The notes under the pieces were generated by a model. That model was not told the origin of the DNA. It saw only the letters and a list, made by a program, of their open reading frames with translations, and made no database searches. A program made the position numbers and the translations under genes. DNA of 64,000 nt, taken from contig CADBBK010000009.1 in the NCBI GenBank assembly GCA_902792895.1, positions 119,246 through 183,245 of the forward strand. The letters run 5' to 3'. The DNA comes from an uncultured Bacteroidales bacterium (GTDB lineage: Bacteria; Bacteroidota; Bacteroidia; Bacteroidales; Muribaculaceae). This document shows positions 49,956 through 56,323 of this stretch, piece after piece. How positions within the stretch are numbered: the first letter of the stretch is position 1; each line of letters starts with the position of its first letter.

Positions 49956-49985
49956 CGATGTGAAACATTAACTTGAATGAGGCGT

Positions 49986-50894
49986 ATGAAACAGGTTTTG
50001 TTGGCTTGCCTGTCGGTTTTGCTGCTGACGGCATGTAGTGACCCAAAGTATGAGGTTCAGGGCGATGTGGTGGTGCGCAGTCACTGGACCTTCAGTTTCG
50101 GAACGTGCTACGACACGTTGCCCGGTGCCGACCCTGCGACCTTCGAGCAGGTGAAGGACTGGCTGGGGCATGACAGCGAGCGGGTGTATTTTAAGTCCAC
50201 GCTGGTACCGGGCGTTGATGTGGCCACGCTCAAGGCCGAACGGTATCCGCTGTTCCATGACAAGAAAGACTATTACTATGAGACCAAGGCCTTGCATGTG
50301 GCCGACATTGCGTCGTTCAAGGTCGTCAAGTGGTTTGATGAAGACTGCTGGGCCAAGGACTCGCGGTGTGCCTATTACGACACGGTGCGCATCGATGGCG
50401 TTGACCTGTCCACGTTTAAAGTCACCGACAAGTGGACGGCCAGGGACAGGTATCACGTCTATGTGAAGGGCTTGTTGTTGCCCGAAGCCGATCCGGCCAC
50501 TTTTAAATCGATAGCCGGCTCATTGTATTATCGCGACAAGTCTCATGTATGGGAAATGGACCGGTTATTGGTCGGAGCCGATCCAGCCACCTTCGAGGTG
50601 ATAAAAGACTCGTACTATGTCCGTGACAAGTCCCATGTCTGGTTCAGCGGACCGGAGAACATTCTGCTGGTCGGGGCCGACCCTTCCACCTTCGAGGTAA
50701 TAGGAAAATCGTACTATGTCCGTGACAAGTCGCACATCTGGTTCCAGGATATCTTGCTGGAAGATGCAGACTATGACACTTTTGTTGCCGAATATGAATC
50801 GTTTGCCCACGACAAGTACGGCTCCTTCATCGGCAGCCAGCGCGACACCGACCCTGTTGATGCGCCACCTGGCGAAGAGCCCGAACCGGAGTAA
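49986..50894 (+). CDS. DKNYY-repeat lipoprotein
   Basis: From the ATG at 49986 the protein has 302 residues; an ATG at 49977 would add MRR. The signal peptide ends in lipobox LLLTAC. The mature protein is a chain of about eight imperfect repeats of 25-35 residues with the core 'ADPATFEVI..YYVRDKSHVWF', the DKNYY-family pattern of short strand-rich units. The last three are close copies, seen also in the DNA around 50570-50770. The family is thought to be extracytoplasmic; its function is unknown. The C-terminus is acidic and Pro-rich. It is transcribed alone, between the divergent LolD-like operon and the metK leader. Confidence 0.82.
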   Translation: MKQVLLACLSVLLLTACSDPKYEVQGDVVVRSHWTFSFGTCYDTLPGADPATFEQVKDWLGHDSERVYFKSTLVPGVDVATLKAERYPLFHDKKDYYYETKALHVADIASFKVVKWFDEDCWAKDSRCAYYDTVRIDGVDLSTFKVTDKWTARDRYHVYVKGLLLPEADPATFKSIAGSLYYRDKSHVWEMDRLLVGADPATFEVIKDSYYVRDKSHVWFSGPENILLVGADPSTFEVIGKSYYVRDKSHIWFQDILLEDADYDTFVAEYESFAHDKYGSFIGSQRDTDPVDAPPGEEPEPE

Positions 50895-50988
50895 ACGTTG
50901 GCCCCGTCGATGAGGCGTCGCGCCGGCTCATATAGTTAAATAAGTATTAAAACTGGCCCGCAGGGTACAGCAAGTGGAAACTTTGTTG

Positions 50989-50996
50989 TACCTTTG
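50989..50996 (+). promoter_or_regulatory. -7 element of metK
   Basis: TACCTTTG, a full TAnnTTTG match, 140 bases before the metK ATG. Transcription should begin near 51002, just ahead of the structured leader. Confidence 0.65.
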
Positions 50997-51016
50997 CGGC
51001 CGAATTTATCAACCAC

Positions 51017-51065
51017 AGTGGAAATTTGGGCTGCTTGCAACCACTTGAAAAAATGCTAAAATGCG
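51017..51065 (+). ncRNA. SAM-II-like riboswitch aptamer in the metK leader
   Basis: The RNA matches the SAM-II pseudoknot. P1 is AGUGG (51017-51021) with CCACU (51041-51045). The P1 loop holds AUUU (51024-51027), seven bases, then UUGCAA (51035-51040), with the spacing of the SAM-II reference RNA. The 3' tail has GCUAAAA (51055-51061) and a later G-C (51063-51064). The tail GC can pair with loop GC (51037-51038), and 51063-51064 can pair with 51030-51031 as G-C/C-G where the reference has C-G/C-G, a compensatory change. The joining loop is two bases shorter than in the reference. The comparison is from memory of the published SAM-II structure. Confidence 0.68.
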
Positions 51066-51131
51066 ATTCAACATTGTTTTTTTTGATTGAGTTTTAGCGT
51101 TCATTTTCCACAAAAAATGAACTATTTTTTT
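51052..51131 (+). terminator. Antiterminator/terminator switch before metK
   Basis: GUUCAUUUU (51099-51107) and AAAAUGAAC (51114-51122) form a perfect 9-bp stem followed by UAUUUUUUU, ending 6 bases before the ATG. An alternative 10-bp stem joins 51052-51061, which includes the aptamer GCUAAAA, to 51092-51101 and shares three bases with the terminator stem, so the two exclude each other. Confidence 0.62.
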
Positions 51132-51136
51132 GTACA

Positions 51137-52411
51137 ATGAACAGTAAGAACAATTATCTTTTCACGTCGGAGAGCGTGTCCGAAGGACACCCCGACAAAG
51201 TTGCTGACCAGATCAGCGACGCGATTCTCGACAAGTTTCTCGCCTTTGATCCTCATGCCCACGTGGCCTGCGAGACCATGGTGACCACGGGCCAGGTGAT
51301 GATTGCCGGCGAGGTGACCACCGATGTCTACATCGACCTGCAGCGCACGGCGCGCGAGATGATTGAGAAAATCGGCTACACCAAGAGTGAATACCAGTTT
51401 GACGCCAACTCGTGCGGCATCCTCAACAGCGTGCATGAGCAGAGCGGCGATATCGCCCAGGGCGTGGAGCGGGCCGAGGATGATAACGCCGACCAGGGTG
51501 CCGGCGACCAGGGCATGATGTTCGGCTATGCCTGCAACGAGACCCCCAACCTGATGCCGCTGACGCTGGACCTGGCCCATGCGCTGATGCGAGAGCTGGC
51601 CGACATCCGTCACAACCATTTGGAGCTGATGCCCTATCTGCGTCCCGACAGCAAAGCTCAGGTGACCGTTGAGTATGATGGCGAGACCCGCCGCCCCGTG
51701 CACATCCACACCATCGTCGTGAGCACTCAGCACGATGACGACGTGGACCAGACGCGCATCGCCCGTGATGTGCACGAGATTCTCATCCCGCGCACGTTGG
51801 CGCAATACAGCGACGACATCAGGGCGCTGTATGACGACAAGACCGAGGAGTATGTCAACCCCACGGGCAAGTTTGTCATCGGCGGTCCCCACGGCGACAC
51901 CGGTCTGACGGGCCGCAAGATCATCGTGGACACCTATGGCGGCCGCGGAGCCCACGGTGGTGGCGCCTTCAGCGGCAAGGACCCCAGCAAGGTGGACCGC
52001 AGCGCGGCCTACGCTTGCCGCCACATCGCCAAGAACGTGGTGGCTGCCGGCATTGCCGACGAGGTGCTGGTGCAGGTGGCTTATGCCATCGGCCGTGCCA
52101 AGCCCGTGAGCTTCAACGTCAACACTTACGGCACCAGCCATGTCAACGTGAGCGACGCCGAGATTGCCGCCGTGCTCGAGGCTATGCCCGAGTTTGACAT
52201 GCGTCCTGCTGCCATCATCGAGCGACTGAAACTGTTGCAGCCCATGTACACCGAGACGGCCGCCTATGGCCACATGGGCCGCAAGTGCGAGACGGTGCAC
52301 AAGACCTTCCTCTCGCTCTACAACAACACGCGCGACGTGGACGTGGAACTGTTCACCTGGGAGAAACTCGACATGGTGGACAAGCTGCGCACCAAGTTCC
52401 ACCTCGCCTGA
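51137..52411 (+). CDS. metK: S-adenosylmethionine synthetase
   Basis: A 424-residue enzyme that makes SAM from methionine and ATP. Signature segments are [17 protein letters not shown] near the N-terminus, [21 protein letters not shown] (split: GAGDQG and FGYACNE) for the first hexapeptide, and [19 protein letters not shown] for the P-loop-like GGGAFSGKD. The protein is about 40 residues longer than E. coli MetK; an insertion near residues 105-120 ([16 protein letters not shown]) is common in Bacteroidetes. It has a 140-base structured leader that fits a SAM-responsive riboswitch, so SAM itself probably limits expression. A bidirectional terminator separates it from recA. Confidence 0.97.
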
Positions 52412-52510: not shown

Positions 52511-53554
<1,044 letters not shown>

Positions 53555-53732: not shown

Positions 53733-53788
53733 CCCAATTATAAGATGTGGAACCTATCATTATTAACCATTTAATAACTTTCATTGCA

Positions 53789-56323
53789 ATGAGGAAAATC
53801 TTTACATTATTCACCATGTGCATGTTGGCTGCTGTAGCATGGGCTGCCGACATCACCTTTGATCCCGCTGTCGACAAGGGCAACGCTGGAGAGCAAGCCT
53901 CGGCCTATGAGGTCCCCAAGGATGGTGTGATTATCAGTGTGTCCAACGGTCTGGTTGCCGCCGACAAGGGCGTGTGGGCTTACCGCGTTTACAAGGGCCA
54001 GACGATGACCATCAGCTGCGAGTCGAGCGACATCACCCAAATCGAGTTTGAGTGCGCTGCCAATGGCGAGGAGAAGTATGGCCCCGGTTGCTTCACTGCT
54101 GAAGCCGGTAAGGGTACCTACACCTTTGAGCCCAACGGTCCTAAGGGTACCTGGACAGGCAGTGTCAGGAGCATCACGTTCACCGCTACGTCCAACCAGG
54201 TGCGTGCCACCAAGATCATCGTGACCGTGGGCAAGGCTGGTCTGTCGGCTCCCGTGATTACCCCTGAGGGCGGTACCTACTATGATCCCATCAACGTGAA
54301 CATCACCTGCGGCACCAGTGGCGCCAAGATTTATTACACCACCGATGGTAGCACCCCCAGCACCAGCTCGACACAGTTCACGGCTCCGTTTACCGTGAGC
54401 ACCGCCACTACCGTGAAGGCCATCTCGGCCCGCGACAATGAGGTGAGCGAAGTTGTGGAGGCTGCTTACACCTTCGGCACCGCTACTCCGGTTCCCAACA
54501 TCAAGGCCTATCAGCAGGTAGCTGACAACACCGTGGTGAAGTTCTCCAATCCCGTTATCGTAACGGCCCAGAGCGGCAACCGCATGTATGTGAAGGATGC
54601 TTCGGGTTATGCCCTGGTCTACGGCAAGACCAACCAGACCTACGCTACCGGTGACAATATCCCCGCCGGCTTTGTAGGCACCAAGATCACCTATAGCGGT
54701 GAGCCCGAGTTGTCTGATCCTGTCAACTTCATGCCTTCCACCGTCAACACGCCCACCGAGCCTGAGGTATTGACCTGCAGCCAGGTGAACGCCAGCAAGT
54801 TCGCTCACTACGCAGTGTTCAACGAGGCTCAGTTCGACCTCGACCGCATGGTCATCATGGATGCTACTGGTGAGGCTCCCCTGTACTTCAACATGAACGT
54901 GAAGAAGTCAGATGTCAAGTCAGGCGTTAAGTACAATGTGGTTGCTGTGATCGCTTCCTTTGCCCGTGAAGGTGAACCCGTTGTTTATCAGGTGATTCCC
55001 GTGAGCGTGAGCAGCGGCGAGAAGATGGGTCTGGGTCTCCTGTCCGAGGTGGCCGATGGCCAGATTGTCAAGCTGGAATATGATGCTACGGTGATTTGGC
55101 AGGGTGGCAGGAACAATGCCTACCTGTATGTGGCTGATGAAACCGGTTTCGGCCTCATCTATGGTGACGTAGGTCACGAGTACTTCATCGGCGATGTTCT
55201 GAAGAAGGATTACACGGCCAAGAAGACCACCTATCCCACCCAGGCTCCCAACGAGCCCGAGCTGGCTACCCCGTTCACCGGCTTTGACGAGCCCATCAAC
55301 GTGGACGAGAACTTCCGCCTGAATCCCGAGGAGATTTCTCCCGCTCAGGTTGACCATGACCACTGGGCACACTATGTTGTACTGAAGAACGTCACGATTT
55401 CGTCGGACGGCGGCACCATCAGCCGCGATGGCGAGAGCTGCCAGATGTACAATGCCACGTTCAACGTGCCTCTGCCCGATGATCTGAATGCTACCCACAC
55501 CGTGTATGGTATCGTGGGCGTTTACAAGAACTACCAGGTGCTGCCTCTGTCATTTGACAAGGCTCCCGAGCGTCCTGCTCCCACTCCTCCCATTGATGTT
55601 GAAAACCTGGAGGAATTCTATACTCAGGTTGATGGCAATGTCAAGGGCCACTTCACCACTCCGCTGACTGCCGTATATCAGAGCAAGGAAGCCGATTACC
55701 TGTATGTTCAGGATGTCGAGGGTGAGTTTGGCTTGATCTATGGCGATCTGGATGTCTATGACTTCCCCAATGGCACTCAACTCCATGATGTAACCGGTAC
55801 CAAGGGCACTTATCAGGGCGCTCCGCAGATCAACCCCAAGGACAATTCGGTTGTTCCTGCCGAAATGGGCACTCCTGTAAATCCCAGAGAACTCGCTATG
55901 GAGGAGATTTCTCAGGATATGGTTCACACCTACTTCTACTTCCCCGAGGTAACTGTTACCGTCGGTGACAAGATCATAATCACCGACGAGACTGAAGAAC
56001 TCCAGTTGTTCGACAAGTTCAAACTCGAACCCGTGGTAGAGGAAGGTAAGAAGTATGAGGTTTGGGGCTTCCTTGGCTTGTTCCAGGGCGCTATGCAAAT
56101 CCTGCCCATTAAGGTGAAGGAAATTGGTGGTGGTGATGACTATCTGCCTGAGGACGTCAACATGGACGGCGAGGTATCGGTAGCCGATGTGAATATCATC
56201 ATCGACATCATCCTGGGCTTCAATTACCCTGAGAAGATCCGTGAGCGTGCCGATGTCAATGGCGACAAGGAAATCTCGATTGCCGACATCAACCGCGTCA
56301 TCAACAAGATCCTGGGCCTGTAA
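53789..56323 (+). CDS. Large secreted protein with chitobiase-like Ig domain, repeated OB-like domains and dockerin
   Basis: From the ATG at 53789 the protein has 844 residues, with a signal peptide ending ..AVAWAA; an upstream in-frame ATG at 53747 lacks a signal sequence. The first 150 residues resemble a lectin-like sandwich. Residues about 155-235 form a chitobiase/hexosaminidase C-terminal-type Ig domain (APVITPEGGTYYDPINVNI, KIYYTTDGSTPS). Next come three similar units of about 150-170 residues, each with a 'NRMYVKDASGYALVYG', 'NAYLYVADETGFGLIYG' or 'DYLYVQDVEGEFGLIYG' core, which look like OB-fold repeats found in secreted Bacteroidales proteins. The tail is a dockerin (DVNMDGEVSVADV, DVNGDKEISIADI). 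No catalytic domain is recognised, so it may be structural or adhesive. Confidence 0.8.
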   Translation: MRKIFTLFTMCMLAAVAWAADITFDPAVDKGNAGEQASAYEVPKDGVIISVSNGLVAADKGVWAYRVYKGQTMTISCESSDITQIEFECAANGEEKYGPGCFTAEAGKGTYTFEPNGPKGTWTGSVRSITFTATSNQVRATKIIVTVGKAGLSAPVITPEGGTYYDPINVNITCGTSGAKIYYTTDGSTPSTSSTQFTAPFTVSTATTVKAISARDNEVSEVVEAAYTFGTATPVPNIKAYQQVADNTVVKFSNPVIVTAQSGNRMYVKDASGYALVYGKTNQTYATGDNIPAGFVGTKITYSGEPELSDPVNFMPSTVNTPTEPEVLTCSQVNASKFAHYAVFNEAQFDLDRMVIMDATGEAPLYFNMNVKKSDVKSGVKYNVVAVIASFAREGEPVVYQVIPVSVSSGEKMGLGLLSEVADGQIVKLEYDATVIWQGGRNNAYLYVADETGFGLIYGDVGHEYFIGDVLKKDYTAKKTTYPTQAPNEPELATPFTGFDEPINVDENFRLNPEEISPAQVDHDHWAHYVVLKNVTISSDGGTISRDGESCQMYNATFNVPLPDDLNATHTVYGIVGVYKNYQVLPLSFDKAPERPAPTPPIDVENLEEFYTQVDGNVKGHFTTPLTAVYQSKEADYLYVQDVEGEFGLIYGDLDVYDFPNGTQLHDVTGTKGTYQGAPQINPKDNSVVPAEMGTPVNPRELAMEEISQDMVHTYFYFPEVTVTVGDKIIITDETEELQLFDKFKLEPVVEEGKKYEVWGFLGLFQGAMQILPIKVKEIGGGDDYLPEDVNMDGEVSVADVNIIIDIILGFNYPEKIRERADVNGDKEISIADINRVINKILGL

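Follow-up and report, generated by a model that had tools for sequence, protein, structure and literature searches.

A short-loop SAM-II riboswitch upstream of metK in a Muribaculaceae bacterium, with possible output by strand exchange

What does the aptamer in front of metK act upon in an uncultured Bacteroidales bacterium of the family Muribaculaceae? The question is raised by the metK leader in a 64,000-nucleotide (nt) stretch of contig CADBBK010000009.1 (assembly GCA_902792895.1, positions 119,246 to 183,245 of the forward strand), hereafter called the window. A first-pass annotation made from the letters alone had proposed that this leader holds an S-adenosylmethionine (SAM)-sensing SAM-II core followed by a complete terminator/antiterminator OFF switch. 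Judged by its sequence, the leader belongs to a kind of SAM-II riboswitch that gut bacteria were already known to carry. For its output we favor, with a probability of roughly 0.57, an OFF switch for metK that would work by strand exchange, termination perhaps being backed by start-codon capture.

A scan of the whole 64-kb window with Rfam 15 gave a single match at the gathering level, RF01726 (SAM-II long loop), which lies on the plus strand at 51012-51069 and scored 44.5 bits where the gathering threshold is 44 (E value of 3.2e-5). The gene downstream of the aptamer is a SAM/methionine gene, metK (TIGR01034), and the proposal of a SAM-II element in front of it was thus borne out. RF00521 (alphaproteobacterial SAM_alpha), the model with which the first-pass annotation had suggested checking the leader, gave 27.8 bits, under its cut-off of 36; it was the long-loop model that passed. 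In the covariance-model alignment the whole RF01726 core was present, namely, P1, AUUUG, UUGCAA, and GCUAAA. By model and gene context, then, the window RNA is a short-loop variant that falls within an established riboswitch family and occupies a common setting. Its parts are as follows.

50989-50996 (+): promoter-like box TACCTTTG, from the sequence
51012-51069 (+): SAM-II aptamer (RF01726), from the covariance model
51017-51021 (+): P1 5' strand AGUGG, with its partner CCACU at 51041-51045, from the alignment and from GTGG/CCAC in relatives
51022-51027 (+): shortened L1, AAAUUU, with 3 nt ahead of UUU (5 nt in most relatives)
51055-51061 (+): conserved GCUAAAA, the 3' strand of the P2 pseudoknot, from the alignment
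51137-52411 (+): metK, methionine adenosyltransferase (TIGR01034 equivalog at 520 bits, cut-off 309; three S-AdoMet_synt Pfam domains)

The box TACCTTTG fits TAnnTTTG, which we take to be the Bacteroidota promoter motif, and the transcript start would fall near 51002-51006. By eye, TTTGC[AG]GC recurs shortly upstream of the aptamer in the leaders of many relatives.

RF01726 was detected with an E value of 0.001 or better in 52 of 61 genomes of a first sample of relatives, in 76 of 79 genomes of a family sample (74 above the cut-off), and in 197 of 295 genomes of an order sample (195 above it). Within the window's genus, metK was found in 96 of 101 genomes, and all 96 leaders were read. Clade A comprises 39 genomes, the window included, with metK at least 83% identical to that of the window, and its sister, clade B, comprises 57 genomes with metK near 70% identity; a quick tree of 61 metK genes split the two by a fully supported branch. 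The aptamer pattern was matched in 39/39 clade A leaders and in 55/57 clade B leaders, the two others being a contig that stops within the aptamer (G028) and a weak case of 30.4 bits (G008). G038 yielded a further, weak RF01726 match (32.7 bits), which had no metK motif and was dropped.

Compensatory changes had been claimed for P1 and for the pseudoknot. Those in P1 were confirmed: among 130 leaders outside the genus, the helix read GTGG/CCAC in 120, ATGG/CCAT in 4, and GCGG/CCGC in 1, the remaining 5 being irregular or misread by the search pattern. Those in the P2 pseudoknot were not confirmed, with no clear signal in the order (permutations as good as the native pairing in 183/5000 cases) and none in the family (1803/5000) or clade A (5000/5000).

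The claim that the joining loop is two bases shorter than in the reference was upheld. The spacing from GTGG to TTT is 3 nt in the window; in clade A it is 2 or 3 nt in 17/39 leaders, all upstream of metK, and 5 nt in the other 22, and in clade B it is 5 nt in 53/55 and 3 nt in two. The window therefore lacks the long L1 from which the RF01726 subtype is named, while scoring above the Rfam cut-off. A second peculiarity is an extra G (GGCTGC), which was observed in 18 clade A leaders and was accompanied in 18/18 by loss of a base after GCTAAAA; that base was kept in 18/21 clade A leaders without the extra G. Two clade B leaders (G027 and G124) carry an extra T at the same site, without the base loss. 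On the starred branches of the metK tree, the extra G and the lost base went together in 4.7 of 6 independent pairs and in opposite directions in none (median p of 0.06, with too few events for significance). Within the genus, scores were 43.7 to 46.4 bits where the short L1 and the extra G occurred together, 46.5 and 47.6 where only the extra G was present, 51.1 and 52.1 where only the short L1 was, and 56 to 67 in most long-loop members. Thus, the window lies at the cut-off because both features lower the score. The cut-off was passed by 18/19 re-scored loci, mostly picked for odd loops, and one fell short at 43.7.

These features might also be taken to describe an aptamer that is drifting, with its ligand lost or changed; the score at the threshold, the lowest scores in members combining short L1 with extra G, and the few pairs in P2a would all suit such a weakening. 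An L1-P2b triplex has been described (PMC5352136), and spermidine-binding variants are on record for SAM-I (PMC10853860); SAM-II is unnamed in the available text of PMC12121620. We consider drift most improbable. AUUUG, UUGCAA, and GCUAAAA are intact, a short L1 also occurs in RF00521, in other phyla, and before metK throughout the short-loop leaders of clade A, and the extra G is matched by the lost 3' base in every clade A leader that has it. Across one genome for each of 84,980 species, the short-loop SAM-II pattern was found at at least 115 loci, at least 27 of them with a full short-loop aptamer. Among the matches listed, 18/27 of the full aptamers lie before metK, all in records titled as Bacteroidales or Bacteroidia families, five of which name ruminants. 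For the other 9/27 among the matches listed there was no metK within 500 bases; seven of these are from Neomarinimicrobiota (L086, L094, L134, L135, L154, L169, and L184, the last lying at the end of its locus).

How the aptamer could reach metK depends on a downstream element, UUUUAGCGUUCAUUUUCCAC (51092-51111), for which three pairings are relevant: one with the 3' strand of P2 (anti-P2), one with the 5' strand of P1 (anti-P1), and a hairpin with the sequence that follows. The features of this region are as follows.

51092-51098 (+): UUUUAGC, anti-P2 arm, partner GCUAAAA at 51055-51061, from sequence and folding
51099-51105 (+): GUUCAUU, which can also pair with AAUGAAC (51136-51142) holding the start codon, from the minimum free energy (MFE) folds, both free and aptamer-locked, of the leader extended by 24 bases of metK
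51099-51122 (+): terminator-like hairpin GUUCAUUUU/AAAAUGAAC, arms 51099-51107 and 51114-51122, 9 pairs, -6.2 kcal/mol
51105-51111 (+): UUUCCAC, anti-P1 arm, which can pair with GUGGAAA (51018-51024, P1 5' strand plus L1), from a permutation test in relatives, mainly G006, G111, and G035
51123-51131 (+): U-tract UAUUUUUUU, 7 U of 8, five bases upstream of the metK AUG at 51137

Folds were computed with Vienna without pseudoknot or ligand; to mimic the bound state, P1 was locked and the strands of the aptamer were blocked. The first-pass annotation had named the pairing of GCUAAAA with 51092-51101 as the antiterminator. This pairing can indeed form, being extendable to 51101 with a G-U, and the GCUAAAA:UUUUAGC helix dominates the free ensemble of the window with a probability of 0.94. 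However, it shares no more than three bases with the hairpin, and the two stand side by side in the free MFE structure of the leader cut at the U-run, so the helix alone does not exclude the hairpin. A switch in which this helix by itself is the antiterminator is therefore very unlikely, although OFF logic as such remains plausible. Exclusion of the hairpin can come from continued pairing, either of UUUCCAC with the P1 5' strand or of UUUUC with the A-run before GCUAAAA; in the free MFE structure of 51005-51140 the helix extends in the latter way and the hairpin is absent.

The anti-P1 pairing was examined across the 39 clade A leaders, where native arms beat swapped arms (0/2000 permutations as good; 2/2000 with unique pairs only; 35/5000 when each distinct pair was represented by a single leader, n = 21). 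Matching changes were seen in G006 and G111, which have GTGGATAG with CTATCC, and in G035, which has GTGGAT with ATCCAC. The metK tree does not place G006 and G111 as sisters, and their common leader type is either convergent or exchanged. At least five pairs at -7.9 kcal/mol or better are possible in 38/39 clade A leaders. The exception, G121 (L192), has its anti-aptamer arm broken by an insert of about 65 to 70 bases, giving a spacing of 141 nt compared with 67 to 79 nt in the other 38; an intact UUUUCCAC followed by a U-run lies downstream of the insert.

The hairpin is likely to be a transcription terminator. Only 9/1000 dinucleotide shuffles of the window leader contained a hairpin that equaled it in stability and in number of U residues. 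Covariation of its arms was seen across the 39 clade A leaders taken without selection (z of -6.3, 0/5000), after removal of G121 with its self-folding insert (z of -5.9, 0/5000), and when each distinct arm pair was represented by a single leader (n = 29, z of -4.7, 0/5000). The arm types include TTCATG/CATGAA, TTCTTG with CAAGAA or CAAGGA, and CATTCATTTT/AAAATGAATG, and in 8/39 leaders the hairpin reaches 11 pairs followed by 6 to 8 U. We rejected the hairpin as a feature of every clade A leader, as arm covariation was gone once the best 19 were removed (130/5000 with G121, 1223/5000 without it); since both subsets were picked on the hairpin itself, only the all-leader tests are unbiased. The same arms tested alike in clade B gave no covariation (2304/5000). 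In the window leader cut at the U-run, the predicted hairpin probability rose from 0.62 free to 1.00 with the aptamer strands locked. Across 18 clade A leaders evaluated it was 0.01 to 0.95 free and at least 0.97 locked in 16. On the best metK tree, in which 16/58 inner branches are weak, the short L1 and the hairpin each require 13 changes, and this disagreement between leader type and tree fits quick turnover or exchange of leaders between species.

The same arm has a second possible target. These Bacteroidales rarely use Shine-Dalgarno sites, and in clade B the downstream element, usually GC[GA]UUUUUCCAC or one U fewer, faces the partner UGGAAAAAUG, which includes the start codon, mostly with 9 to 10 base pairs. 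Forty-nine of the 55 clade B leaders were usable, five having no such element and one having its start codon within the aptamer; native pairs averaged -9.2 kcal/mol compared with -7.2 kcal/mol for permuted ones (z of -10.3, 0/5000), and the duplex reached -9.1 kcal/mol or better in 40/49. Among 101 leaders examined from clade B and the family sample, 45 have both motifs, and in 43 of these the U-run and the A-run are equal in length (5/5 in 32, 4/4 in 8, and 6/6 in 3; the exceptions are 5/4 and 6/5). G064 and G103, which lie outside the motif, have 7 U against 6 A, and in G109 the arm is replaced with the pairing kept. On the metK tree there are two changes to a run of 4 and two or three to a run of 6, with 2/2 and 2/3 independent pairs in agreement, too few for significance. 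When the aptamer was locked, the predicted openness of the AUG dropped by more than 0.3 in 25/54 clade B leaders and rose in 3; in clade A it dropped by that much in 9/39 (window excluded) and rose in none. Two clade B leaders, L245 (G095) and L248 (G119), lack the start-codon arm and have, by eye, a long, G+C-richer, terminator-like hairpin with a U-run.

Start-codon capture is accordingly a live alternative to the terminator, or a partner of it. As an alternative, the window would hold a purely translational OFF switch, in which the U-rich hairpin does not terminate and freed GUUCAUU captures AAUGAAC, as its counterpart appears to do in clade B and in several further genera of the family. 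The clade B pairing and run lengths argue for this, as do the occurrence of GTTCAT with ATGAAC in 26/39 clade A leaders, the window's own MFE folds, which form GUUCAUU:AAUGAAC both free and locked, and the presence of only two G-C pairs among the nine of the A/U-rich hairpin. We nevertheless think it unlikely, if still a serious contender: the hairpin arms covary and are seldom equaled by shuffles, some leaders extend the hairpin to 11 pairs before the U-run while codon 2 departs from AAC in 4/7 clade A leaders whose arm is ATTCAT and in G073, and the predicted change in start-codon openness in the window is small. Another start-site structure, an ACAAAA...UUUUGU hairpin before the start codon, was tried as a common clade A sequestor and rejected, with no covariation (1023/5000).

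For the preferred strand-exchange switch, we infer SAM binding, the direction of regulation, termination, and start-codon capture as follows. Without SAM, the aptamer region would hold UUUUAGCGUUCAUUUUCCAC through UUUUAGC:GCUAAAA together with UUUCCAC:GUGGAAA, or with UUUUC paired to the run of A residues that precedes GCUAAAA. Once SAM is bound, the P1 and P2 strands would be locked in the aptamer and UUUUAGCGUUCAUUUUCCAC would be freed, whereupon the arm GUUCAUUUU could fold into the terminator hairpin ahead of the U-run. If polymerase read through, the same arm could capture the start codon by GUUCAUU:AAUGAAC.

Several observations weigh against this switch. The leader overall is no stabler than its shuffles (z of -0.58, 48/200 as stable), and the permutation tests, comparing native with swapped arms, leave shared ancestry in. 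In addition to the low G-C content of the hairpin, a conventional scan needing three G-C pairs found no terminator in 50880-51250, and a hairpin of -4 kcal/mol with 5 U of 8 was found in 17/39 clade A leaders, the window included, with 22 below that threshold and 189/1560 shuffles reaching it. What stands of the A/U-rich terminator first proposed is a terminator-like hairpin with a 5' arm that an alternative pairing can sequester; the hairpin is not conserved across the clade. At equilibrium the free leader still forms the hairpin at 0.62, and locking lowered it in G084 (0.78 to 0.68) and left it low in G097 (0.01 to 0.04). The start codon of the window is largely paired already (openness of 0.11 free and 0.01 locked), a small predicted swing. 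Finally, the anti-P1 signal weakens to 98/5000 without G006 and G111 and to 293/5000 without G035 as well, and clade B gave no anti-P1 covariation (984/2000), because the sequences hardly vary there. Since the anti-P1 signal depends on three leaders, we hold both strand exchange and the extension of it described next more cautiously.

That extension concerns why the aptamer and the start site compete for one arm. In clade B, GUGGAAAAA in the aptamer and UGGAAAAAUG at the start site are near copies, and therefore the aptamer strand can be a decoy for the arm. Within the family, the aptamer 5' strand might thus mimic the metK start site, the arm UUUUUCCA fitting both GUGGAAAAA and UGGAAAAAUG, with SAM handing the arm from the sensor to the start codon and the long, A-rich L1 serving partly as decoy. 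In the lineage of the window, the arm might then have been rebuilt as GUUCAUUUU to pair with two copies of AAUGAAC, one in the terminator arm and one at the start codon, acting on both transcription and translation, and L1 shortened. We offer this tentatively and would put it at somewhat worse than even odds.

Outside the genus, 48 family loci were scanned and 46 leaders obtained. By the thresholds used, twelve of these appear start-codon capture-like, 20 have a terminator-like hairpin (counted without a shuffle control, with false ones expected from long leaders), 9 have neither, 4 have the start codon 0 to 17 bases past GCUAAA, and 1 passes both tests (start codon not found, hence unreliable). 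The downstream element covaried with the start region in the family sample (z of -4.25, 0/5000, n = 42). In L035 (G016), L374 (G436), and L370 (G445), the metK start codon adjoins or overlaps the end of the aptamer (GCUAAAAUG in G016 and G436); these three leaders would represent a direct-occlusion design, whereas most leaders read in the family have a longer spacer. In the order, the test covered 84 leaders from other families, most of them among the top RF01726 scorers. The downstream element covaried with the 5' half of the aptamer (z of -8.4, 0/5000), with the loop alone (z of -7.5, 0/5000), with the P1 3' strand plus L3 (z of -3.1, 12/5000), and with the start region (z of -4.05, 0/5000). 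No covariation with it was found in these 84 leaders for L1 alone (1851/5000) or for GCUAAAA (2354/5000), the latter because GCUAAA is invariant. The anti-aptamer element thus looks general across the order, with the loop as its main target there; targeting of the P1 5' strand was observed in the window's genus.

The first-pass annotation had also treated SAM-II as unusual outside alphaproteobacteria and ribosome-site sequestration as its usual output. Published accounts, as far as their accessible text extends, contradict both. SAM-II long loops (RF01726) were described from Bacteroidetes and marine samples (Weinberg 2010, PMC2864571, Table 1), and the SAM_alpha/metA element (RF00521) was noted in the Bacteroides group in 2005, many copies with putative terminators, and OFF logic was proposed (Corbino 2005, PMC1273637). 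In alpha- and beta-Proteobacteria, terminators are the output most often predicted (Barrick and Breaker 2007, PMC2258182), although SAM-II is usually presented as direct occlusion with the ribosome site inside the pseudoknot (PMC10907184). The window resembles RF01726 in sequence, P1 structure model, occurrence in Bacteroidetes, and a score above gathering and differs in its L1 of 3 nt rather than the 5 nt of most relatives; the expression platform of RF01726 is not described in the consulted text of PMC2864571. With RF00521 it shares a compact pseudoknot and short L1, and it differs in its gene, metK not being named in the consulted text of PMC1273637. In Sinorhizobium meliloti, the SAM-II switches of metZ and metA include one predicted terminator formed when SAM is bound and one translational switch; these are from another phylum and Shine-Dalgarno based, and the accessible text describes no arm complementary to a start codon (PMC9373788). 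Dual platforms are known in which a terminator lies so near the open reading frame that both transcription and translation may be affected (PMC2258182), but in the window the arm would pair with the AUG itself. No account of such sensor-to-gene wiring was found in the literature searched, which mostly excluded subscription papers and supplements. The wiring in the relatives, with one short arm pairing with sensor, terminator hairpin, or start codon, accordingly looks new.

In the surroundings, a DKNYY-family protein is encoded at 49977-50894, upstream of metK, and recA lies downstream on the opposite strand (52511-53554). It is followed by a large open reading frame (53747-56323) with chitobiase C-terminal, Fn3-associated, and dockerin type I domains.

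For the biology of these bacteria, our findings suggest that the Bacteroidales sensor trades one RNA arm with a start codon or a terminator instead of occluding the ribosome site directly. The apparent output differs among genera of one family, from start-codon capture through a terminator-like hairpin to a start codon 0 to 17 bases past the aptamer. The family would therefore provide a natural series for studying how a single aptamer becomes coupled to different outputs and what the long loop is for.
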